This document shows positions 1 through 9,631 of a stretch of 9,631 nt of DNA, one piece after another; position 1 is the first letter of the stretch, and the number at the start of each line of letters is the position of its first letter. The notes under the pieces were generated by a model. It was not told where the DNA came from and searched no databases. It saw only the letters and a list, made by a program, of their open reading frames with translations. Where the stretch lies: assembly GCA_024684065.1 (NCBI GenBank), contig JAIKXO010000072.1, positions 1 through 9,631 of the forward strand, given 5' to 3'. A program made the translations under genes and the position numbers. The stretch comes from Lachnospiraceae bacterium (GTDB lineage Bacteria; Bacillota_A; Clostridia; Lachnospirales; Lachnospiraceae).

Positions 1-994
1 GATGATCTTTAAAAGCAGCCGTCCTGTGGATCGGAGTCGGATAAAAGATTGCAGTTGGAATCCCATTCTGATCCAGTGCCTGAAGTATCTTTTTTCGCTC
101 CTCAAAGCTTCTGGCTTTCAGCGTGTACTGCGCCCAGCTGGATTTATATCCGTCAAGGATAACCGGTACACCGATCACGTTTTTCAGCTGTTCCGTATAT
201 ATCCTGGCGATCTGTTCTCTGAGAACCAGCTCCCTTTCGAACAGATCAAGCTTTACAAGAAGAACTGCTGCCTGTATGGTATCCAGCCTGCTGTTAAGGC
301 CGATTCGGACGTTGTTATATTTATCCTGACCCTGTCCGTGATTCCGGATCGAATCAACCGCTTCCGCAAGATCATCCCGATCCGTAAAAATCGCACCGCC
401 ATCACCGTAACATCCCAGAGGCTTTGCCGGATAAAACGATGTCGCGGAAATATCTCCGAAGCTGCATGCCTTTTGATCCATGATCCTGCCGCCAAATCCC
501 TGCGCTCCGTCTTCGAGCACGAATAAATCGTTTTCCTGCGCGATCGTACATATTTCTTCATATTCCGCAGGCTGTCCGAAAAGATCCACAGCCACTACAC
601 CCTTTGGTCTTAGTTCTCCGGCTTCTGTTATCACGGAGACCGCTTTCCTTAAGGAATCCGGAGACATATTAAAGGTATCTTCCCTGCAGTCGACAAACAC
701 GGGCGTCCCACCGGCCAGGACGATGCTCTCTGCAGATGCAAAAAAAGTAAAGGATGGCACAAACACCGCATCATTCTGTCTTATGCCAAGCGCCATCAGG
801 GAAATCGTCAGAGCTTCAGTGCCGTTTGCACAGCTTTTCACATACTTTCTTCCGGTACAGGCTGCAAGGCGCTGTTCCAGCTCCTTTACCTCCGGACCGT
901 TAATAAACTGTTTGTGCTGCAGGACGACGTCAATGCTTTGCCGCATTCTGTCCTGAAATTCGTCATATTGTCTGTGTAGATCGATAAATTGCAT
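1..994 (-). CDS. DegT/DnrJ/EryC1-family sugar aminotransferase, 3' end beyond the window
   Basis: PLP-dependent aminotransferase that converts a keto-sugar nucleotide to an amino-sugar nucleotide, normally in the cytoplasm with glutamate as amino donor. I translated the minus strand from the ATG at 994-992 and found 331 open codons running off the left edge. The protein opens with MQFIDLHRQYDEFQ, the usual N-terminus of the WbpE/WlbC/PglE type. Visible motifs are SCANGTEAL (about 54-62, cofactor phosphate), EDGAQGFGG (161-169, with the Asp and Gln that contact PLP), SFYPAKPLGCYGDGGA (186-201, Lys191 the expected Schiff-base lysine), and RNHGQ and GLNSRLDTIQAA (217-243). Family members are about 360-380 residues, so roughly 30-50 residues are missing. 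It starts 12 bases after the dehydrogenase stop, with only a weak AAGG upstream, which suggests translational coupling. The pairing with a Gfo/Idh dehydrogenase and an LpxD-like acyltransferase suggests a 3-amino-3-deoxy sugar (for example a 2,3-diamino uronate), but the substrate cannot be read from sequence. Confidence 0.95.
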   Translation of the reverse strand, partial: MQFIDLHRQYDEFQDRMRQSIDVVLQHKQFINGPEVKELEQRLAACTGRKYVKSCANGTEALTISLMALGIRQNDAVFVPSFTFFASAESIVLAGGTPVFVDCREDTFNMSPDSLRKAVSVITEAGELRPKGVVAVDLFGQPAEYEEICTIAQENDLFVLEDGAQGFGGRIMDQKACSFGDISATSFYPAKPLGCYGDGGAIFTDRDDLAEAVDSIRNHGQGQDKYNNVRIGLNSRLDTIQAAVLLVKLDLFERELVLREQIARIYTEQLKNVIGVPVILDGYKSSWAQYTLKARSFEERKKILQALDQNGIPTAIFYPTPIHRTAAFKDH

Positions 995-1006
995 ATTGAA
1001 CTTGCC

Positions 1007-1945
1007 TTACAATTGTGCCAGAATCTGTATCTGGGCAGTTATCAGAATTTTCATAATACGTATAGCGGATGCCGCATCTGTCAGGGAATTCGTTCCGGAA
1101 TCCACACATGCGCAAAAGTGTTCCAGGCTGTTGTCCAGAGCATTTCCTGCTTCGGGTTTTATGATACGCAGATCATCCGTATCATTGTTATAAATCATCA
1201 GTTTATCCGGAGCAAAGATCTCATCAAAAACAAGAGTTTTTTCCGTTCCGCCAAGACATATCTTACGCTCTTTGACCGGAGAAACCCAGCTGGCGGTTAA
1301 CTCCGCCGAAAATCCCGGATACTTTAAGAGAGTAAATGCGATCGACGTATGGGAATATCCCAGCTTTTCCCCTATTGAACGGACAACCACAGGTTCTGCG
1401 CCATCTGTCAGATAATCTATGATGGAAAGATCATGTACGGTAAGATCCTGAAGAACAGTTATATCAGACCGTTCTCCGCCGAAGCTGGTTCTTCGCATTT
1501 CGATATAACGGATCTCGCCAAGGCTCTTTTTTTCAAGTAGTTCCTTCATTTTTCGAACCGCAGGGTGGTAGAGCATAATATGATCCACATGGATCAGGCA
1601 GTCCTTTTCTTTTGCAAGCTCGTAAAGACGCTCTGCCTGTTCAAGGGTTTCGGTGAACGGTTTTTCGATAAAAATATGTTTTCCTGCGAAAAGCGCCTGT
1701 TCTGCCATCTCAAAATGTGCCCCGGTAGAGACGGTCAGAGCAACCGCGTCGATCGATGCATCATCCAGCAGCTCCTGATAATTGCCTGCATAGGAAAATG
1801 AATTACCATAAGCACGACGTACCTGCTCAAGTTGTTTCGGATTCTTATCATAAACAGATACAAGTTCGATCCCGGGTGTTCTCAAAATCGCTTTTAAAAC
1901 CGTATTGCCCCAGCATCCGCATCCTGCCAGCGCTATTCTGATCAT
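1007..1945 (-). CDS. Gfo/Idh/MocA-family NAD(P)-dependent sugar-nucleotide dehydrogenase
   Basis: A 312-residue oxidoreductase expected to oxidise a sugar-nucleotide hydroxyl (C3 in characterised relatives) to a ketone, making the substrate for the aminotransferase that follows. The N-terminal Rossmann fold shows GCGCWG (8-13). FIEKPF (92-97) carries the family Glu-Lys-Pro motif with the catalytic lysine. HVDHIMLYHPAVRKMKEL (119-136) and DLTVHDLSIIDYL (167-179, with the Asp and His of the C-terminal active-site helix) match the sugar-nucleotide subgroup usually found beside DegT and acyltransferase genes. Full length for the family is 310-350. The ATG at 1945 has AGGAG at 1955-1959, nine bases away, and the gene starts 20 bases after the glycosyltransferase stop. 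WlbA/WbpB-like activity on UDP-GlcNAc uronate is the best functional guess, but this protein belongs to a different sequence subgroup from Pseudomonas WbpB. Confidence 0.92.
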   Translation of the reverse strand: MIRIALAGCGCWGNTVLKAILRTPGIELVSVYDKNPKQLEQVRRAYGNSFSYAGNYQELLDDASIDAVALTVSTGAHFEMAEQALFAGKHIFIEKPFTETLEQAERLYELAKEKDCLIHVDHIMLYHPAVRKMKELLEKKSLGEIRYIEMRRTSFGGERSDITVLQDLTVHDLSIIDYLTDGAEPVVVRSIGEKLGYSHTSIAFTLLKYPGFSAELTASWVSPVKERKICLGGTEKTLVFDEIFAPDKLMIYNNDTDDLRIIKPEAGNALDNSLEHFCACVDSGTNSLTDAASAIRIMKILITAQIQILAQL

Positions 1946-1965
1946 GTTACTGTTCTCCTGTGTTA

Positions 1966-2979
1966 TTACAATAAATCAAATAGATTGTTTTGTTTAAGTT
2001 TTCCCGCATACAGTTCCGGTAAAAGTGCTGTGACACGGACGTTTTCATGATACCGCTCCACATATTCTCTTCCGCTTTTTCCGAGGCAGATCCTTCTTTG
2101 CTTATCTGAGATGAGACTGCTTACAACCTCGCCCAGGTTGTCAAAATCAGCGTTTACGACCGGCAGAAGCGGATGCCTGAGCCTTGTCTTTTCTGAAATA
2201 TACGCAATGACCGGTTTCCCAAGAGCCATGGCTTCAATGCTGAGAACGCCATAGGATCCGCCGGAAATCTGGTCGATAATGATATCTGCCGTGCGGTATA
2301 TATTAAGTGCTTCTTCAGGTGTCTTTCCTTCTACGAGTACCAACTCAAAGTCCTCTTTCACACGCCCCAGTGCCCGGAGAATACGGTCTGTTCCCTTAAA
2401 CTGCCGATTGGTCGGTGCATGGACGATACGCAGACGCTCATGACCGGTTTCATACTGCGGTTCATGCTTTTTGATGTCTACACGGAGAGGGACGATGTAT
2501 ACAGGTTTTGAAAGAGGTTTAGGAAGATATGGATACTGACCCGCGCTGTGCAAAATGATACCATCGCTTTTCCCGATCAGATTAAGAAGCAGTTTCTGTC
2601 TTCGCAGCCTTTCTTTGGAATTTATGTGTTCCCTTGGAGCAAAAGGGAGTGGAATGTCATTGAATATATATCGGATCTCCGTTCCATGAAACTCTGCAAA
2701 TATCCGAACATTGTTTTTTTTGAACAGATCCAGGTCGGTTTGATCCGAAAGAAGAGTATCTCCCGCATGAGAATGAAAAATGTCGATTTCTTTTGCTTTC
2801 TGTTCTGCAAAATCACGCACCTGCTGTGGTTTTGTCCTGTCCAGAATAATGTCTGCTGCGTAGCTGCTTTTTCCATCCGAAAATAAAGCCAGCTCCGCCG
2901 TTATACCGTTTCTGCGCAGTCCTTGAACCGTATAGTATCCCTGTCCTGAAATCTCCGACATGCCATGTAGTACGTTCAT
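1966..2979 (-). CDS. GT4-like glycosyltransferase (GT-B fold)
   Basis: A 337-residue predicted retaining glycosyltransferase that would transfer a sugar from a nucleotide donor to a growing lipid-linked or surface glycan on the cytoplasmic face. It starts MNVLHGMSEISGQGYYTV. IFHSHAGD (67-74) and IFAEFHGTEIR (93-103) lie in the N-terminal acceptor domain. HAPTNRQFKGTDRILRAL (187-204) begins the donor domain, and SGGSYGVLSIEAMALGKPVI (239-258) is the family donor-site block with its conserved glutamates. There is no membrane segment. The open frame extends 33 codons upstream to 3078, but ATG 2979 is chosen because homology begins there and it overlaps the MurD-like stop as ATGA (2976-2979), the usual coupling arrangement. 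Its acceptor and donor are unknown; the amino sugar made by this operon is a natural candidate donor. Confidence 0.9.
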   Translation of the reverse strand: MNVLHGMSEISGQGYYTVQGLRRNGITAELALFSDGKSSYAADIILDRTKPQQVRDFAEQKAKEIDIFHSHAGDTLLSDQTDLDLFKKNNVRIFAEFHGTEIRYIFNDIPLPFAPREHINSKERLRRQKLLLNLIGKSDGIILHSAGQYPYLPKPLSKPVYIVPLRVDIKKHEPQYETGHERLRIVHAPTNRQFKGTDRILRALGRVKEDFELVLVEGKTPEEALNIYRTADIIIDQISGGSYGVLSIEAMALGKPVIAYISEKTRLRHPLLPVVNADFDNLGEVVSSLISDKQRRICLGKSGREYVERYHENVRVTALLPELYAGKLKQNNLFDLL

Positions 2980-4412
2980 CTTTTCTGCGTCCTGTTCCTC
3001 TCTTTCGCTTTCAGCTGTTCCACTAACTGCACGAACAGTTCTCCTTCTTCGAAGATATTGTTGAATTCCGGCGCCCATTTATCGCCCGGAGAAAACAGGA
3101 TCGTCTGCCCGGGGATGGCCATATTTACAGCTGCATGAAAGGCTTCTTCCAGTGAAGCTGCCGTAAAGATCTCCTTAAGGACAGCGTCCTCTCTTTCTGC
3201 AGCTTTGCGAAAGCCCTCTGCATAACGGGCGGCTGCAGGCCCGAATAAAGAGGCGCCCGTACATGTGACTGCGACAGTTTCGGCCAAAGACCTGATATCC
3301 ATTCCGGCATCTTTTCCACCGGCAATCAGAACGAGCTGTCCGGGCCGGTACATTCGGACTGCGGCCTCCGCTTTTGCAGGATTCCCGGATTTTGCGTTAT
3401 CTACAAAACGGATGCCATATGCTTCTCCGCAAGGGACATTGCGATGTTCAAATGGCTTGAATTCTTTCAGCGCCGTTCGTATATCCTCATCCGCTATTCC
3501 CAGCTCACAGGCCGCGGCAGCTGCCGCCAGCGCGTCGATCCGGTTAAATTCTCCGGGAAGCTTTAGCTGCGAAGAATGGACCAGATCATGGCAGTGCCCG
3601 TTTAAGCGCACCATCAATCGGCCGTTTTCTGTAAATGCAGCATTATCTCTCCCACAGTCACTTTCTCCGACGAAGCATGCGCGAAGTCCGGCGTCATCCA
3701 GATGCTGCAGTATTTCTCTGCAATAAGGATCGTCTGAACATATGATTGCCAGATCCTCCTTTTCCAGATTGGAAAAAATACATTCCTTGGCTTTCGCGTA
3801 GGATTCCATGGACCGGTGCCAGTCCTGGTGGTCTTCACTGATATTCGTGAGGACTGCGATACCGGGATGCATTGACGGAGCGTTGATCAGCTGGGAGTGG
3901 GACAGCTCTGCGACCAGCCATTCATCTGCTTTTCGGACTGCTTTTTCACTTACGATCGGATACCACTCGTTTCCCGCCGGAACAGCCTTTTGTCCGGAAT
4001 TCCTTATAATAGAGGTCAGTATCGCAACGGTTGTAGTCTTTCCGCTTGTTCCCGTAATTCCTATCCAACGGTCACTTTTTTCCCGAAAGGCCAGTTCGGG
4101 TTCACTGATCAACTCCCGGGAGCATTTTTCGGCGCTTTTATAGAAGCCGGACCATGAAGGGATCCCGGGGGAAGCGATGCACAGATCAAAACTGCCTGTA
4201 ACTTCTTCCCCGTAAATAACCTTCACACCGGCTTCTTTCAGCTTCTTTTCCTCTATGCTGTCTTTTTTCATCCTGCCGGTATATACAGTCAGCTCCTCGA
4301 CCCTTTTTCCGATCAGAGGGGAAAGATATTCTGCCACAGCCTGACCAGTCATGCCCCAGCCCAGGATACACACCTTTCCGTAGTTTTTGTTTTCAGCAGT
4401 ATCAATGGTCAT
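2976..4412 (-). CDS. MurD-like amino-acid ligase (divergent Mur ligase)
   Basis: A 478-residue ATP-dependent amide ligase of the MurD family; MurD itself adds D-glutamate to UDP-MurNAc-L-Ala. The N-terminal domain has ILGWGMTG (16-23). The central ATPase has GITGTSGKTTT (118-128), NISEDHQDWH (190-199, with the Mg-binding His) and YAKAKECIF (205-213, Lys209 the likely carbamylated lysine). The C-terminal domain keeps EHRN (322-325). Changed positions include ELSHSQL (169-175) for the usual ELSSFQL, DNAKSGNP (338-345) for NDSKATNP, AGNEW for GNIG, and SPGDKWAPEF (441-450) for SPAxASxDxF. Several of the altered residues contact D-Glu in E. coli MurD, as I recall it, so the amino acid or acceptor may differ. 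Setting inside a glycan operon supports a paralogue rather than the housekeeping gene, but a lineage-specific true MurD is not excluded. Start 4412 is chosen over 4418 because AGGA lies 8 rather than 2 bases upstream. It overlaps the acyltransferase gene. Confidence 0.88.
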   Translation of the reverse strand: MTIDTAENKNYGKVCILGWGMTGQAVAEYLSPLIGKRVEELTVYTGRMKKDSIEEKKLKEAGVKVIYGEEVTGSFDLCIASPGIPSWSGFYKSAEKCSRELISEPELAFREKSDRWIGITGTSGKTTTVAILTSIIRNSGQKAVPAGNEWYPIVSEKAVRKADEWLVAELSHSQLINAPSMHPGIAVLTNISEDHQDWHRSMESYAKAKECIFSNLEKEDLAIICSDDPYCREILQHLDDAGLRACFVGESDCGRDNAAFTENGRLMVRLNGHCHDLVHSSQLKLPGEFNRIDALAAAAAACELGIADEDIRTALKEFKPFEHRNVPCGEAYGIRFVDNAKSGNPAKAEAAVRMYRPGQLVLIAGGKDAGMDIRSLAETVAVTCTGASLFGPAAARYAEGFRKAAEREDAVLKEIFTAASLEEAFHAAVNMAIPGQTILFSPGDKWAPEFNNIFEEGELFVQLVEQLKAKERNRTQKR

Positions 4413-5343
4413 TTTCATTATCCTGTTGATTCTTACCGGAAATATTTTTTATATGTGCTACATAGGCGGCATGTTCAATAGCAAAGTTACCGGAGTATCT
4501 TTCGCCCGGGGGTACCGGCTTAGTCACTACGGCGCCGGCGGACAGCTTTGCATCGTGGCCTACCGTAACGCCGGGAGCAACGGTCACACCGACTCCCAAC
4601 GAGCAATTGTCCTCCAGCGAAGAAAGACCTGCCAGTATAACTCCTACAGGTAACATGCAGTTCTTTCCGACCCGGACATCATGAGACACATGAACTCTAT
4701 TGGATACTTTTACATTATCATTAAGGAAGGACGGCCGAAATACGCCTGCCTGAATCACGGTTGCTGCGTGCAGACATACTCTGTTTCCGATCACAACCCC
4801 GCAGCCGGCCCGCACAGGTTTGGTGTTGTCTCCTTCCCCATAGTAATAGAAGGCAGGCGCACCAATGATACAGTTCTCCATGATCGTGCAGTCTGTTCCG
4901 ATCGTTACGTTTTCTTCGATCACGGTCCCTGATCTGATCACACATCCGGCGCTGATTGAGACGCCCTTCGGTGCGATCTTCACGTCCTCTGCCACAACAG
5001 CTGTCTCGTCGATGAAAGTGTCGAAAAGCTCACGTTTTTCATAAATTCTGTTGTGAATTTCAAAGAATGATGTCCGGGGGTTTTCTGAGACAAGGATACC
5101 TCCGTCAAAGGAATCCTTTATTGCATCCAATAGCTCCGGAGTGCAGATAACTCCCGAAAACTCCCCGCTCAAAAGGCTCTCTGTGTAAGAACTGCCGGTC
5201 AGATATGTGATACAGGTCCGGTTGTGTTCGTGTTCTTTATCGACCAGCATCGTTTTACTGAAAAAACAATCCCGGATCAGTTGGACATTTTTGGTGCATA
5301 CAAGCATTTCTTCCGATAAACGATAATCTTTATTCATTTTCAT
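4402..5343 (-). CDS. LpxD-like left-handed beta-helix acyltransferase acting on a sugar nucleotide
   Basis: A 313-residue hexapeptide-repeat acyltransferase. Residues 1 to about 110 form a mixed N-terminal domain resembling the uridine-binding domain of LpxD. From about 113 the hexapeptide rungs follow: DETAVVAEDVKIAP, CVIRSGTVIEENVTIGTDCT and GAPAFYYYGEG (161-171), the last placed like the GaxGFGY turn of LpxD. RVHVSHDVRVG (216-226) matches the LpxD catalytic-His segment (VqIaHNv), so His221 is the candidate base. A final coil GNFAIEH and a polar tail end the protein. LpxD acylates lipid A precursors in Gram-negatives. Here there are no lipid A neighbours, so the likely role is N-acylation of the amino sugar made by the dehydrogenase and aminotransferase. 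The adenylating ligase upstream could activate the acyl group. AGGGAG lies 4 bases before ATG 5343 and 10 before ATG 5337, so either start is possible. The start overlaps the dead ABC frame by 14 bases. Confidence 0.88.
   Translation of the reverse strand: MKMNKDYRLSEEMLVCTKNVQLIRDCFFSKTMLVDKEHEHNRTCITYLTGSSYTESLLSGEFSGVICTPELLDAIKDSFDGGILVSENPRTSFFEIHNRIYEKRELFDTFIDETAVVAEDVKIAPKGVSISAGCVIRSGTVIEENVTIGTDCTIMENCIIGAPAFYYYGEGDNTKPVRAGCGVVIGNRVCLHAATVIQAGVFRPSFLNDNVKVSNRVHVSHDVRVGKNCMLPVGVILAGLSSLEDNCSLGVGVTVAPGVTVGHDAKLSAGAVVTKPVPPGERYSGNFAIEHAAYVAHIKNISGKNQQDNENDH
4421..4424 (-). promoter_or_regulatory. Ribosome-binding site deciding the MurD-like start
   Basis: AGGA on the minus strand lies inside the 3' end of the acyltransferase gene. 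It is 8 bases from the ATG at 4412-4410 and only 2 from the ATG at 4418-4416, which favours the later start. Confidence 0.5.
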
Positions 5344-5651
5344 ATAACTCCCTGTACGGCTTACATCTGCATATCAACTCACTGCGTGTTCCCTCATTAA
5401 GAACGCTGCCGTCTTCTATTAATATGATCCGATCGGCATCGATGATGGTGGATGATCTGTGGGCTGCCATGATCACCGTTCCGGCTCATTTCCTCCTCTG
5501 TCAGATACGGTTTCACGATATGCAGGTTGTCCGGATGCTGAGATTAAAAATATACGGATTCTGGCTTACCACCGCGATTCAGGACAGAGTGTCCCACTTA
5601 GCATCAATTCAGGCATCCGAAGTTTTGTTCCGAAAAATATGCTGCTGTCAT
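5330..5651 (-). pseudogene. Remnant of an ABC exporter (ATPase domain fragments)
   Basis: The space between the ligase and acyltransferase genes is a heavily deleted ABC transporter. On the minus strand 5578-5531 reads IAVVSQNPYIFNLSIR, a Q-loop segment. A one-base loss follows, since restoring a G gives SIRDNL, and reading continues in another frame as NLHIVKPYLTEEEMSR (5528-5481). The signature, Walker B and D-loop are then missing. Reading resumes as GTVIMAAHRSSTIIDADR (5482-5429), which holds the H-loop His, and runs through IILIEDGSVLNEGTRSEL to YRELYENE and a TAA at 5332-5330. No Walker A is visible, and in-frame stops interrupt the 5' part. An ATG at 5651 overlaps the ligase TGA (ATGA) and opens a 15-codon frame, possibly the original start. 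Both borders keep overlaps with their neighbours, so an intact exporter was probably once part of this operon, perhaps to flip or export the product. Confidence 0.85.
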
Positions 5652-7267
5652 CCTATATTTTTCAGTCTATTTATAATTTCCTTTTTCAGTGACAATGTAT
5701 CAATCTTTCCGTTGGCAAGGGAGGGTAGCTTTTCATAGATAAAGAAATATGCGGGGATTTTATATCTGGCAAGCTTCGTCATAAGGAAGTCCCGTATTTC
5801 CTTTCCGTCAAAGGACACTCCCTCTTTAAGTACCACAGCAGCTGTAACGATCTCACCGTATATCTCATCCGGTACTCCGATAACCTTCACATCAACAACG
5901 TTTTCATACATGGAGATTGCGGAAGCCACCTCGTTTGGCATGATATTCTCGCCACCGCGGATGATGATTTCCTTGGCACGTCCCGTGTAATGCAGATAGC
6001 CTTCCTCATCCAGGAAACCCAGATCCCCTGTCTGAAGAAAACCATCCCTGTCAAAGGGCTGCTTATCGGTCGGTTGTTTATAATAGCCACTCATCTTAAA
6101 ATTTCCTTTTACAACAATTTCGCCCTGAATACCCGCAGGACAAAAATTGTCCGTCTCCATGTCTTTTATCCTTACATCTGCGCCGTCAACGGGCTTGCCA
6201 ACAGTATACAGGATATGGTCAGTATCATCCTCCAGATCCGTCGAGCTTACCGGTGTCATCTCAGTGAGACCATAACGCCGCAAAAAATGGTTGTTGGGAA
6301 ACCTGCGCATCAGAATCTTTAACTGAGCTTCCGACACAGGCGACCCGCTGATATACGAAGCCCTGATGCCAGATACAAGCTCCTCGGAAAACCCCGGCGA
6401 ATTGACAAGTCTTATTAATACCGTGGGTACTGAATGAAGGATCGTACATTTTTCGTTTTTCAGTACGCTGATAAGCTTGTCCGGCTTCAGGCTGCATGGC
6501 AGAACCAGCAAAGATCCGCAAATGACACAGGACAACAGTACTGCTGTCAGCCCGAAAATATGAAAAAATGGCAGGATGGCACAAATCCTGTCATCCACTG
6601 TCATTTTAAGCTTGCGTACACAGTAGTCAGATGAACTGAATAAATAGGAAGGTGAAAGCATCACCCCTTTGGGCGTACCGGTAGAACCGGAGGTGAATAT
6701 AATAAGACAGGCGTGATCGGACGCGGGGCGGACATCAGGATATACTGCCAAGGGTCTTTTCAGGAAATCGATTTCGTCTCCGACATCAAGCACCTCCCTT
6801 ATCCTCGACTTTTCCGGATCGGTTATCTGCGCCAAAAACTGCTGTCTGTCTCTGACTGAAGCATTCCCTAAACAGAAATGAGTGAAATCTCCCGCCATTG
6901 AGAGAGCCGTGATCTCCTCCGAAGTGAACTGCGGATTAAGCACCACAGCGACTGCACCAATCTTTTGGATTGCGAAAAAGGTCAATATCCAGTTCACTGA
7001 GTTTGCACCGCACAAGGCTACATGCGATCCTGATCCTGCTCCAAGGGCATAAAGCTCACCGGCAATGACTGATGCCCCCCTGTCGATATCCCGCCACGCA
7101 TACTCAATCCCATCAGCTTTCATAAGGATCCCTTCGGGGTATTCGCGCACCCTGCGCTCGATCATATCCTTTATGGACATATTTCTGATATTGTCACTTT
7201 CATTTCCGGCTCTGTGCTTGGAATTATCCGACCCCCCCGTCACCTTATTGTCACCAAATTTAGTCAA
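5648..7267 (-). CDS. Adenylate-forming ligase (acyl-CoA synthetase/AMP-binding family)
   Basis: A 539-residue enzyme that activates a carboxylic acid as an acyl-adenylate and passes it to CoA or a carrier protein thiol. Motifs are FTSGSTGTPKG (191-201, phosphate loop), FFHIFGL (234-240), RYGLTEMTP (331-339), TGDLGFLDEEGYLHYTGR (413-430, ribose-binding Asp and hinge), IIIRGGENIMPNEV (434-447) and NGKID (519-523) with the C-terminal catalytic lysine. All steps needed for activity appear intact, and length is normal. The start is a TTG at 7267-7265 with AGGAG five bases upstream. The first in-frame ATG (7180) has no ribosome-binding site, although homology begins only near it, so residues 1-29 are a polar extension. 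It is the first gene of the glycan operon and may supply the acyl group for the LpxD-like protein. The substrate is unknown and no carrier-protein gene is visible in the window. Confidence 0.93.
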   Translation of the reverse strand: MTKFGDNKVTGGSDNSKHRAGNESDNIRNMSIKDMIERRVREYPEGILMKADGIEYAWRDIDRGASVIAGELYALGAGSGSHVALCGANSVNWILTFFAIQKIGAVAVVLNPQFTSEEITALSMAGDFTHFCLGNASVRDRQQFLAQITDPEKSRIREVLDVGDEIDFLKRPLAVYPDVRPASDHACLIIFTSGSTGTPKGVMLSPSYLFSSSDYCVRKLKMTVDDRICAILPFFHIFGLTAVLLSCVICGSLLVLPCSLKPDKLISVLKNEKCTILHSVPTVLIRLVNSPGFSEELVSGIRASYISGSPVSEAQLKILMRRFPNNHFLRRYGLTEMTPVSSTDLEDDTDHILYTVGKPVDGADVRIKDMETDNFCPAGIQGEIVVKGNFKMSGYYKQPTDKQPFDRDGFLQTGDLGFLDEEGYLHYTGRAKEIIIRGGENIMPNEVASAISMYENVVDVKVIGVPDEIYGEIVTAAVVLKEGVSFDGKEIRDFLMTKLARYKIPAYFFIYEKLPSLANGKIDTLSLKKEIINRLKNIG

Positions 7268-7272
7268 ATTTT

Positions 7273-7283
7273 CTCCTGCTCCT
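7273..7283 (-). promoter_or_regulatory. Tandem Shine-Dalgarno for a TTG start
   Basis: Two overlapping-spaced AGGAG cores (7283-7279 and 7277-7273 on the minus strand, separated by one base) precede the TTG at 7267-7265 with a 5-base spacer. This is the main reason to accept TTG as the ligase start. Confidence 0.6.
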
Positions 7284-7288
7284 ATGAG

Positions 7289-7310
7289 TTCGTAACAACT
7301 CAGTTACGAA
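7289..7310. promoter_or_regulatory. Inverted repeat, candidate operator of the glycan operon
   Basis: Perfect 8-bp arms TTCGTAAC (7289-7296) and GTTACGAA (7303-7310) are separated by 6 bases. The repeat sits between the ribosome-binding site of the ligase and a TACAAT hexamer at 7318-7313 on the minus strand that could serve as a -10. A dimeric repressor site just downstream of a -10 would fit, or the repeat could be a small leader hairpin. No convincing -35 is seen, so promoter placement is tentative. Confidence 0.4.
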
Positions 7311-7370
7311 TTATTGTATTTCATTTGTTTTGAGAAGTTGATCAGCTACTTGTCTTTCCTTTTCCATATT

Positions 7371-7455
7371 AAGACACGGGTAAGACACGGGAAGACACGG
7401 GGACGGTTCTTTTGTCTTATGCTTAGCAAAGACAAAAGAACCGTCCCCGTGTCTT
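7371..7455. repeat. Dispersed palindromic element with 27-nt arms and a triplicated arm end
   Basis: Perfect inverted repeats occupy 7392-7418 and 7429-7455 around a 10-base centre that can itself form a 3-bp inner stem. The arm begins AAGACACGGGGACGGTTCT. The outer ten bases, AAGACACGGG, also occur at 7371-7380 and 7382-7391, directly before the left arm, so this end is present three times in tandem. I recall near-identical GACGGTTCT palindromes dispersed in many Bacillota genomes, in the style of REP elements mobilised by Y1 (REP-associated tyrosine) transposases. No transposase is in this window. It lies 33 bases after the lipoprotein stop on the minus strand. It lacks a following T-run on either strand, so it is not a standard intrinsic terminator, although such a stem could slow transcription or protect RNA ends. 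Confidence 0.85.
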
Positions 7456-7487
7456 ATGGCTCATTTATTCAGCATAATATCTCCGCT

Positions 7488-8288
7488 TTAATTTGATTTC
7501 TTTTCGTATATATATTCATTGCCATCAACTGTAATAATAAGATCTTCCCCTGATCTTTCAATGTATTCCTTCGGAGCCGGTTCGCTGTCCTTATAAAAGT
7601 TATCCAGCCAATACTTCTCATGATAACCGCCATCAATATATTCATGTTTTCCATAATATATGGATTTGCGCTCTTCATATTCCGTTCCGTCTTCATTTAT
7701 ACCCCGTCTTAATACGCTTCCGTCATCGGATATGATAAGAGTGATATCCCCGCACGTATATTCCCCGTATAGCTTCACATATTCCTGTAAGGCCGGTTCG
7801 GCATTCAGGGTTTCTATGATAAAATCATCACCTGCTGCTTCCTTTTTAAGAAATGCACTTATGTCTGACATCCGTACAGCGTCTCCATACTCAAAGTCCC
7901 TGAGATATTTAACAAGCATAAGATAATATGCGCCTTCATAGCCTGCGTCCTGCTCAAGCTTAAACTCTGCAGCCGACAGGTCTCCGTTTTTGATAAGCTC
8001 TTTTGCGGAATCAACGGCGCCGATTTCGCCCGGGGTGATCCCGTCGAGGATATCTTCCCGACCGTCCCCGCCGGCATTATCCTCTGTCCCTGTCCCGTTT
8101 TTTGCAACACCGGCATTATCCTCTGTTCCTGTCCCGTTTTCTGCAACACCGGCATTATCCGCCGTTTCCAAATAACCGGAACATGAACATAGTGTCAGCA
8201 TAATACTGAACAATACCGTTATTACCGAAACCCTTCGTCTGGTAATATTCCATACTTCAGCTATCTCAGATGTTGTAAAGTACCCCAT
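7488..8288 (-). CDS. Putative lipoprotein with a helix-turn-helix-derived N-terminus
   Basis: A 266-residue protein of unknown function. The first 19 residues, MGYFTTSEIAEVWNITRRR, look like the start of small clostridial helix-turn-helix (excisionase/MerR-like) proteins. They are followed directly by a hydrophobic stretch VSVITVLFSIMLTL and LCSCSG, a lipobox-like end with Cys36 (or Cys34) as the likely lipidated residue. The three arginines can serve as the signal-peptide n-region. Residues 44-73 are a low-complexity linker with two 13-residue repeats (DNAGVAxNGTGTE). The rest is acidic: about 90-165 looks helical, and 170-266 is rich in alternating beta-like segments (GDITLIISDDGS, DLIITVDGNEYIYEKK). 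No family is recognised. AAGGAG lies 7 bases before ATG 8288. No alternative ATG precedes the hydrophobic core, so this chimeric start is probably the one used. Predicted location is the outer face of the membrane. Confidence 0.75.
   Translation of the reverse strand: MGYFTTSEIAEVWNITRRRVSVITVLFSIMLTLCSCSGYLETADNAGVAENGTGTEDNAGVAKNGTGTEDNAGGDGREDILDGITPGEIGAVDSAKELIKNGDLSAAEFKLEQDAGYEGAYYLMLVKYLRDFEYGDAVRMSDISAFLKKEAAGDDFIIETLNAEPALQEYVKLYGEYTCGDITLIISDDGSVLRRGINEDGTEYEERKSIYYGKHEYIDGGYHEKYWLDNFYKDSEPAPKEYIERSGEDLIITVDGNEYIYEKKSN
8071..8160. repeat. 39-nt tandem repeat inside the lipoprotein gene
   Basis: Two complete copies (8071-8109 and 8110-8148) and the first dozen bases of a third (from 8149) are in phase with the reading frame, giving 13-residue units. 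The two full copies differ at only a few positions, so the duplication is recent. Copy-number change in multiples of 39 would keep the frame and alter only linker length behind the lipid anchor. Confidence 0.85.
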
Positions 8289-8444
8289 ATCTCTTCTCCT
8301 TCAGATAGAATAACATTTATGATTACTGTATGCCTTTACAGGAATAACAGGAATAACAACACAATAATGATATTTATTTACAGGTAGAATACTTGTTTGA
8401 AACACCATAGTCAAGGTTGAAAAAAGGTGTAAAAAGGTTATTAC

Positions 8445-8483
8445 TTTATCTTTATCTGCATTTCAGATGCTGATAAAGATAAA
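8445..8483 (+). promoter_or_regulatory. Long inverted repeat in the leader of the broken ATPase gene
   Basis: Arms TTTATCTTTATC (8445-8456) and GATAAAGATAAA (8472-8483) pair perfectly. After one T/T mismatch, GCAT (8458-8461) pairs with ATGC (8467-8470) around a 5-base loop TTCAG. It ends just before GAGAGG (8487-8492) and the ATG at 8498. It could be an operator for self-regulation or an mRNA hairpin controlling translation. No T-run suited to termination follows. Confidence 0.6.
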
Positions 8484-8497
8484 ATTGAGAGGTGCAT

Positions 8498-8775
8498 ATG
8501 AATAATATTATTGGACGTGAAAATGAAATTGAACGTTTGAATCGGGCTCTTGAAGAAAAAGAAGCTCAGTTAATTATTGTATATGGCCGAAGAAGAGTCG
8601 GAAAACATTTCTTATAAATGAATTTTTTAACGGATCTTTTGCTTTTCATTTCACGGGTTCGGAAAAACAGACGAATCGAGAACAATTAAAAAACTTTTCA
8701 CTGGAATTTACTTTTTCATTCAAGTTTCAAAACGGGCTGTCAGCCGCGACCGACAACCCGCCAAATGTGCTTTGA
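8498..8775 (+). pseudogene. Broken DUF234-like AAA ATPase (archaeal-type ATP-binding protein)
   Basis: From ATG 8498, preceded by GAGAGG, the protein begins MNNIIGRENEIERLNRAL and reaches YGRRRVGKH, where the family has the Walker A motif GRRRVGKT. It then stops at TAA 8615-8617 after 39 residues. Inserting one A in the run at 8602-8605 restores KTFLINEFFNGSFAFHFTG and further family-like sequence to about 8712 (FSLEF). After that, similarity ends and the frame reads non-family residues to TGA 8773-8775. The frame after the shift overlaps the terminator of the opposite gene. Intact members are roughly 380-480 residues, so about 300 or more residues are gone. The sequence is AT-rich compared with its flanks, suggesting a separate origin. 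The gene has lost both its ATP-binding loop and most of its length. Confidence 0.85.
8729..8760 (-). terminator. Probable intrinsic terminator of the SLOG-protein transcript
   Basis: As minus-strand RNA, 8760-8733 folds into a 12-bp GC-rich stem (with G.U pairs) capped by CGCG. It is followed directly by UUUU (8732-8729) and more A/U-rich sequence. It lies 75 bases after the stop at 8835. The T-run is short, so termination may be incomplete. Confidence 0.6.
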
Positions 8776-8834
8776 TTTTTCAGTTTATATAGCCTATATT
8801 CTGCACAAAATTCCAGATTTTCAGAATTTTGGAT

Positions 8835-9350
8835 TCATTCATCCTGTCTTCCGGACGTATCAAAAACCGGCAGGACAGCTGTAAGGACTGCCTTCGCTGT
8901 CTTATATGCTTTTGGACATTCACTCGCCCTGGGACCGCCCACACACAACTCCGTTCGATCTGGCAGTGTGCTGATCCATTGGAAAATTGCTGATACATCT
9001 TTCAGCCCAGCTGCTGTGAACATCGGTTTGCCTAGATGCTCACCTTCCTCAAGACCGACTTCTGTTCCTTGTGACTTGGCAGAGCTCTCCGGAATGATGG
9101 TCAGGATAGCATCCGCGTCACGCATGTTCCACCTTGTCCTCTGCTCAGTTCCAGAAGAAGGGGTTTCCTGCAATTCCAGATAATCCCGCAGCAGTCCCGG
9201 AGGATCCGGATAATCCTCCGCCCAGCCGCCATTAGGGCACCATCCGCAATAGGGAATCCCATGTTCTACGGCAAAGTCCAGGGCAGCTCTGTCGACACCG
9301 CTCTGGCCGCCGGTCCGGATTTTTGCTATCTTTCTTACGCTTGCTGTCAT
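8835..9350 (-). CDS. SLOG-superfamily protein, putative molybdenum carrier type (PF12694-like)
   Basis: A 171-residue single-domain Rossmann-like protein. TGGQSGVDRAALDFAVEHG (13-31) is the nucleotide/ligand-binding start of the family. CGWCPNGGWAEDYP (35-48), LQETPSSGTEQRTRWNMRDAD (60-80, split here by position), AILTI (81-85), SQGTEVGLEEGEHLGKP (93-109) and VGGPRAS (137-143) follow in family order. Relatives resemble molybdenum-cofactor carrier proteins and YpsA/LOG proteins; true biochemical roles are mostly unproved, and some SLOG proteins bind nucleotides in signalling or defence. ATG 9350 has GAGGTG about 9 bases upstream. The length and motifs are complete. It lies 35 bases after the small gene upstream and is probably cotranscribed with it. 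No molybdenum-related neighbours are visible, so the carrier name should be read as a family label. Confidence 0.85.
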   Translation of the reverse strand: MTASVRKIAKIRTGGQSGVDRAALDFAVEHGIPYCGWCPNGGWAEDYPDPPGLLRDYLELQETPSSGTEQRTRWNMRDADAILTIIPESSAKSQGTEVGLEEGEHLGKPMFTAAGLKDVSAIFQWISTLPDRTELCVGGPRASECPKAYKTAKAVLTAVLPVFDTSGRQDE

Positions 9351-9385
9351 GGTGGCATCACCTCGATCAACTTGAATTTGTTTGA

Positions 9386-9619
9386 CTATTTTGTTTTATA
9401 CACGAAGACCTCATGGATTTCATGATCGTATCCTTCATAGAACCCGCTTGGCATTCCTGCGATGATCCTTGCGCCGTGATTATACAGCAAAAGAAATTCT
9501 TCACGTGCGCCGTCAAACGTCAGCCCTTCAATTTCGCCTTGCCTTTTCACGTCGTCAAACGTTTTCTCCAACACGACCGTGCCTGTTTGCCGGTCTTCGC
9601 TGATTTCAATTTGATACAT
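9386..9619 (-). CDS. Small protein of unknown function, possibly 5'-incomplete
   Basis: A 77-residue soluble, acidic protein with no signal peptide or membrane segment. Its sequence is well mixed and codon-like, with a likely N-terminal beta pair (MYQIEISEDRQTGTVVLEK), a helix around 21-28 and 37-46 (GAREEFLLLYNHG), and a tail ending HEVFVYKTK. I do not recognise the family. The frame is still open through the four codons between 9619 and the right edge, and no clear ribosome-binding site is seen in the 12 bases available, so the ATG at 9619 may be internal. The same strand and the 35-base gap to the SLOG-protein gene suggest one transcript. Confidence 0.6.
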   Translation of the reverse strand: MYQIEISEDRQTGTVVLEKTFDDVKRQGEIEGLTFDGAREEFLLLYNHGARIIAGMPSGFYEGYDHEIHEVFVYKTK

Positions 9620-9631
9620 GTGATCCGGGGC

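Follow-up and report, generated by a model that had tools for sequence, protein, structure and literature searches.

Why should a gene that resembles murD, whose product adds D-glutamate in cell wall synthesis, lie among sugar-modifying enzymes, and what would its product now join? The question is raised by a 9,631-nucleotide stretch of DNA from a Lachnospiraceae bacterium (GenBank assembly GCA_024684065.1, contig JAIKXO010000072.1, positions 1 to 9,631; hereafter the window, meaning the whole stretch that was analysed), which contains the following gene:

2976..4418, minus strand: MurD-like ligase, 480 amino acids, intact, with an altered D-glutamate pocket (open reading frame, domain and model scan, fold and alignment).

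We propose that this protein probably descends from MurD and now serves as an amide ligase in a uridine diphosphate (UDP)-2,3-diaminosugar pathway, where it would couple a carboxylate carried by a nucleotide sugar to some amine that is not D-glutamate. An earlier note on this DNA had placed the gene at 2976..4412; one intact open reading frame runs from 4418 to 2976 on the minus strand, and position 4412 is its third codon, which is also ATG. A plus-strand reading of 2976..4418 was ruled out, since it contains 8 stops.

Judged by its sequence, the protein is a full-length MurD-fold ligase in which the ATP and metal machinery has been kept. It exceeds the gathering scores of both Mur_ligase_M (99.3 bits, cut-off 24) and Mur_ligase_C (31.6 bits, cut-off 28.4) and has the P-loop and metal residues of the Mur ligase superfamily, and MurD accounts for its 11 best matches among solved sequences and for the first 30 rows of the structural comparison. 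Its identity to E. coli MurD is 27.3%. All the motifs quoted in the earlier note were found in the 480-residue frame. Specifically, the ATPase side is intact as had been claimed (GTSGKTTT, NISEDHQD and a carbamylation-type lysine, K211, equivalent to E. coli K198), while ELSHSQL, AGNEW, DNAKSGNP, GGKDAG and SPGDKW occupy the usual positions of MurD motifs. In MurD the donor is first activated by ATP as an acyl phosphate, and D-glutamate then attacks this intermediate (PMC4816537); because the catalytic residues are kept, the MurD-like protein likely uses the same acyl-phosphate chemistry.

The altered motifs are not peculiar to the window. A protein search, in which 7996 candidates sharing most words with the query were scored, gave 1672 proteins at E <= 1e-20, of which the best 120 were listed. 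Among these listed matches the first 35 form one set, 66-94% identical (P0035 is a fragment), and thereafter identity is at most 44%. The window protein and these 35 close relatives have the altered motifs in common, with small variants, so that the motifs are more than chance. In the next 85 of the matches listed the motifs are of the ordinary GNIG, ELSSFQL, DSKATN and SPACSS types and K348 is present, the organism being shown for one of them (P0062, Collinsella).

To place these changes, 35 ortholog rows (the window protein and 34 relatives, the fragment having been dropped) were aligned with 133 ordinary MurDs, namely 48 from the genera of two ortholog-bearing genomes, G001 and G002 (24.6-28.8% identical to the window protein), and the 85 others (33.6-43.3%). 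In MurD, inhibitors that mimic D-glutamate have one carboxyl contacted by Lys348 and at times by Thr321, the second by Ser415 and to some extent by the Phe422 amide, and a sulfonyl group by Asn138 and Ser159 (PMC3527612). In E. coli numbering, residue 321 is Thr in 133/133 ordinary MurDs and Gly in 35/35 ortholog rows, although the pattern by which the 48 were extracted includes DSK.TN and hence Thr321 (all 48 loci given passed and none was dropped; the 85 were selected without a motif). Residue 348 is Lys in 133/133 ordinary MurDs and Ala, Thr or Ser in 31, 3 and 1 of the ortholog rows, and residue 415 is Ser in 133/133 and Trp in 34/35, with one gap. The three contacts to the D-glutamate carboxylates are therefore absent from the ortholog group. 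Further changed columns are D317, S318 and, on the donor side, I139E, G140W, S160H and F161S. By comparison, K115, E157, S159, H183, K319 and R302 are kept in 35/35 ortholog rows, and N138 and K198 in 34/35. More broadly, 72 columns have one residue in at least 97% of the ordinary MurDs; 48 of these are retained in at least 90% of ortholog rows and 24 are not, three of the latter (L121, L409 and F419) being only mildly affected, with the usual residue still in most rows. The uracil-site Asp35 is unconserved in the ordinary MurDs compared, too.

Because the contact residues change while the catalytic columns are kept, we read the amino-acid pocket as rebuilt, the donor side as partly rebuilt and the ATP and metal machinery as intact. 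D-glutamate is thus an unlikely amine substrate. The altered substrate pocket of the earlier note is consequently upheld as regards the D-glutamate contacts.

Two genome loci carry the ortholog: L001, from an uncultured Lachnospiraceae metagenome-assembled genome (MAG) named RUG14137, which we take to belong to a rumen series, and L002, from an Eubacteriales MAG. A second, canonical MurD is present in both G001 and G002, between genes that we named by eye as mraY and ftsW. At E <= 1e-60 a MurD match was found in 23/24 and 25/25 genomes of the two genera, with two matches in G001 and G002 only, and the MurD-like gene lies outside the mur/fts cluster with sugar enzymes as neighbours. When 60 of the 169 rows in the alignment were placed in a tree, the 14 MurD-like rows fell on a single branch (SH-aLRT, an approximate likelihood ratio test of branches, 100; stem 1.51), which lies among wider MurDs and apart from 14 MurDs of the two genera (SH-aLRT 99), so that the MurD-like rows stand outside the MurD clade of both. 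The tree was built rapidly, its outgroup (E. coli) sits on a long branch and long-branch warnings were raised, so its rooting and the exact sister are unsure. At the same threshold of 1e-60 the query genome itself was the only one with an ortholog in the family (1/397 genomes) and genus (1/24) of G001 and in the family (1/299) and genus (1/25) of G002, and none was found in the viral contigs searched. We infer that a foreign MurD likely arrived and then changed function.

The genes around the ligase bear on what that function may be. They are:

4402..5343, minus strand: LpxD-type sugar N-acyltransferase, 313 amino acids; at its 3' end it shares 17 bases with the start of the MurD-like gene.
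1966..2979, minus strand: glycosyltransferase, GT4-like, 337 amino acids; its start codon and the stop of the MurD-like gene overlap in the sequence ATGA.
1007..1945, minus strand: Gfo/Idh/MocA oxidoreductase, GnnA/WbpB-like; the best curated model is UDP-N-acetylglucosamine (UDP-GlcNAc) 3-dehydrogenase.
2..994, minus strand: DegT/WbpE-like sugar aminotransferase, cut by the contig end; best match 4qgr, then WbpE.
5333..5578, minus strand: remnant of an ATP-binding cassette (ABC) exporter, in three pieces and different frames, matching residues 537-696 of the intact L002 exporter.
5648..7267, minus strand: AMP-forming acyl ligase, 539 amino acids; it lies upstream and only uncertainly belongs to the unit.

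The Gfo/Idh and DegT genes follow the glycosyltransferase closely. The window appears to be an entire contig, as the one listed for its own glycosyltransferase is 9631 bases long. The acyltransferase aligns with LpxD across the repeats and part of the region before them, and the best structural-sequence match of the Gfo/Idh protein is 7bvj, presumably GnnA (a literature search for 7BVJ found nothing). The family match of the glycosyltransferase is weak: the window protein reaches 21.8 bits with MshA, and its L002 homolog 22.8 bits with Glycos_transf_1, which is below cut-off. Thus, on homology, a dehydrogenase, an aminotransferase and a hexapeptide acyltransferase that make up a UDP-2,3-diaminosugar gene set are present together, and the sugar-modification setting claimed in the earlier note is supported. 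None of the operon's genes was recognised as belonging to peptidoglycan synthesis, and none of the 8 window open reading frames scanned as a UDP-sugar dehydrogenase. The gap at 5344-5647 contains the exporter remnant, and no acyl-carrier protein was recognised there by eye among open reading frames of at least 30 amino acids. The AMP-forming ligase had no tblastn match in L001 or L002.

Elsewhere in the window we observed a lipoprotein-like frame at 7488-8288 (minus strand), with a repeated NGTGTEDNAG stretch near its N-terminus and no Pfam match; a circularly permuted YpsA/SLOG-family protein (PF12694) at 8835-9350 (minus strand); and, at 8492-8617 (plus strand), a 41-residue frame that by eye resembles the beginning of an AAA-type ATPase, including a Walker A-like stretch, before it runs into a stop.

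The same operon recurs in L002 in the order DegT, LpxD-like, MurD-like, glycosyltransferase and Gfo/Idh, with DegT first rather than last as in the window, and with a family-3 glycoside hydrolase, a sugar-transfer ATP-grasp protein, an ABC exporter and a flavin reductase in addition; in L001 an ATP-grasp gene lies upstream. Between the window and L001, the ratio of nonsynonymous to synonymous substitution rates (dN/dS) is 0.16 for the MurD-like gene (dS 0.85), 0.14 for the LpxD-like gene and 0.12 for the glycosyltransferase, with dS at 0.85 to 1.03 and thus near saturation. When the lists of close relatives were compared (35 MurD-like and 32 LpxD-like), ten lengths (135663, 90961, 41437, 20901, 12969, 9110, 7905, 6487, 5669 and 4376) were given for the longest contig in both, which, with sizes matched without contig names, suggests that the two genes travel together.

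The acyltransferase family also occurs without the ligase. A search with the acyltransferase P0155 at E <= 1e-40 found 2/397 family genomes and 6/391 class genomes, G001 being counted in each, and by blastp at 1e-8 none of six acyltransferase stretches of 15 to 20 kb each contained a MurD-like match. Two of these genomes, G822 and G670, have homologs of the LpxD-like protein (35% identical), glycosyltransferase (38-39%), Gfo/Idh (42%) and DegT (59%) at one locus, which is exopolysaccharide-like and where an initiating sugar transferase gene and a flippase gene were also picked out by eye. L018, L074, L075 and L076 contain parts of the four-gene set only, with no glycosyltransferase match. L072 and L073, polysaccharide loci from class-level relatives of a Lachnospiraceae MAG, have three LpxD-like blastp matches each, although such bacteria would not be expected to make lipid A. 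P0130, closely related to the LpxD-like protein, comes from a MAG labelled Fretibacterium, presumably a member of the Synergistota, which may reflect transfer or a binning error.

How might these enzymes act together? From the neighbouring genes, the sugar is predicted to be UDP-GlcNAc3N or the corresponding uronic acid. In the pathway that we propose, all of whose substrates and step order are inferred, the Gfo/Idh enzyme would oxidise UDP-GlcNAc or its uronic form at C3, after which the DegT enzyme would add a 3-amino group and the LpxD-type enzyme would N-acylate it. The MurD-like enzyme would use ATP to convert a carboxylate of the nucleotide sugar to an acyl phosphate and couple this to an amine other than D-glutamate, and the glycosyltransferase would pass the finished sugar to an acceptor. 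We favour a carboxylate on the N3 acyl arm, as the substrate would then resemble UDP-N-acetylmuramic acid (UDP-MurNAc); this is the weakest part of the proposal, and the carboxylate could also lie at C6 or on UDP-MurNAc-L-Ala itself. Taken further, on a reading that we consider rather unlikely, the operon might build a muramic-acid look-alike, that is UDP-GlcNAc with a carboxylate-ending acyl arm on an N3 amide rather than an O3 ether, extended by the former MurD with a non-glutamate amine; the Trp, Asp, Lys and Trp now in the pocket would fit a partner that is aromatic or sugar-like. Lachnospiraceae-type bacteria would then have, besides peptidoglycan synthesis, a similar second pathway, leading to an envelope glycan or to a glycopeptide for export.

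Several findings weigh against an amide ligase of the diaminosugar pathway. The curated MurD equivalog model TIGR01087 accepts the window protein (269.5 bits, cut-off 211.95); the Gfo/Idh protein scores 143 bits against the UDP-GlcNAc 3-dehydrogenase model, far below its cut-off of 450; and no source of a carboxylate-bearing acyl group was recognised. On the donor side N138 (34/35), S159 and G73 (both 35/35) are unchanged, and the enzyme could therefore still accept its original donor. The ortholog was found in only two genomes, and in one of them, G002, the MurD-like gene (L002 at about 11305, plus strand) has a single in-frame TGA near its 3' end, which may reflect decay or an assembly error.

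One alternative, which we count as a variant of our proposal and consider unlikely, places the carboxylate at C6 of a UDP-diamino-uronic acid (UDP-GlcNAc3NAcA type), with which an amino acid or amine would form the amide. Acyltransferase relatives in L018, L073, L074 and L075 share their loci with genes that by eye resemble nucleotide-sugar 6-dehydrogenases, and UDP-sugar dehydrogenase matches elsewhere in G001 and G002 leave room for a uronic route. However, those matches are on contigs other than that of the operon, none of the scanned window frames is such an enzyme, and the best curated model of the Gfo/Idh protein, though below cut-off, is a 3-dehydrogenase. Hence the uronic-acid or amino-sugar nucleotide of the earlier note agrees with the neighbours in its amino-sugar half, and its uronic half is only possible.

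An improbable alternative is that the donor is still UDP-MurNAc-L-Ala, to which a different amino acid is added, the modified muramyl dipeptide being diverted from the wall and decorated by the neighbouring enzymes. This would be consistent with the retained N138, S159, H183 and G73 and with the glycoside hydrolase and ATP-grasp protein downstream in L002, but the four donor-side substitutions change that part of the site and the neighbours indicate a diaminosugar, not muramic acid. It is very improbable that the protein is a spare peptidoglycan copy still adding D-glutamate, or L-glutamate, through a rebuilt pocket; the TIGR01087 score and the top solved-sequence and structural matches, which are MurD, would fit this, yet three side-chain carboxylate contacts are changed across the ortholog group, both ortholog genomes have an ordinary MurD and the operon has no recognised peptidoglycan gene. 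A non-catalytic or decaying copy, to which the in-frame TGA of G002 and the degraded ABC gene near the ligase in the window could point, is scarcely credible given catalytic residues in 34-35 of 35 rows and a dN/dS of 0.16 against L001.

In its general form, then, the inference of the earlier note mostly stands (a second ligase, a separate clade, lost D-glutamate contacts and sugar neighbours). If the amide-ligase proposal is correct, a core cell wall ligase has been recruited to sugar-nucleotide chemistry after losing its amino-acid pocket, and an amide-forming step has been added to the diaminosugar pathway. Counts of MurD can also mislead, because the curated model accepts this ligase and NCBI names the ortholog P0034 MurD. 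The enzyme should be soluble and its substrates accordingly accessible to direct assay.

Compared with ordinary MurD, the window protein shares a full-length match, the predicted fold, P-loop, metal residues and carbamylation-type lysine and passes TIGR01087, but it differs in the replaced T321, K348 and S415, in its place outside the mur/fts cluster and in 24 of 72 near-invariant columns. MurD2 of Xanthomonas, which adds L-glutamate and serves peptidoglycan synthesis, is a MurD relative whose amino-acid substrate has changed, as is proposed for the window protein; a literature search for it listed no paper on the subject, though the word occurs once in PMC3605390. GnnA/GnnB and WbpB/WbpE/WbpD are UDP-2,3-diaminosugar pathways and, like them, the window has a Gfo/Idh dehydrogenase, a DegT aminotransferase and a hexapeptide acyltransferase in a single operon; unlike them, its acyltransferase is LpxD-type and a Mur ligase is added. 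No description of a MurD-type ligase in a diaminosugar operon was recognised by title or opening of the abstract among the open-licence papers listed. Mur ligases are named in other predicted peptide operons, an operon of the window type not being described in the part consulted (PMC2922099). Finally, the pseudomurein ligases pMurC, pMurD1, pMurD2 and pMurE are likewise Mur ligases outside bacterial peptidoglycan, but the window protein matches their models only weakly, with 79.9, 78.3, 64.3 and 51.3 bits against cut-offs of 610, 550, 560 and 600, and its match to MurD is far stronger.
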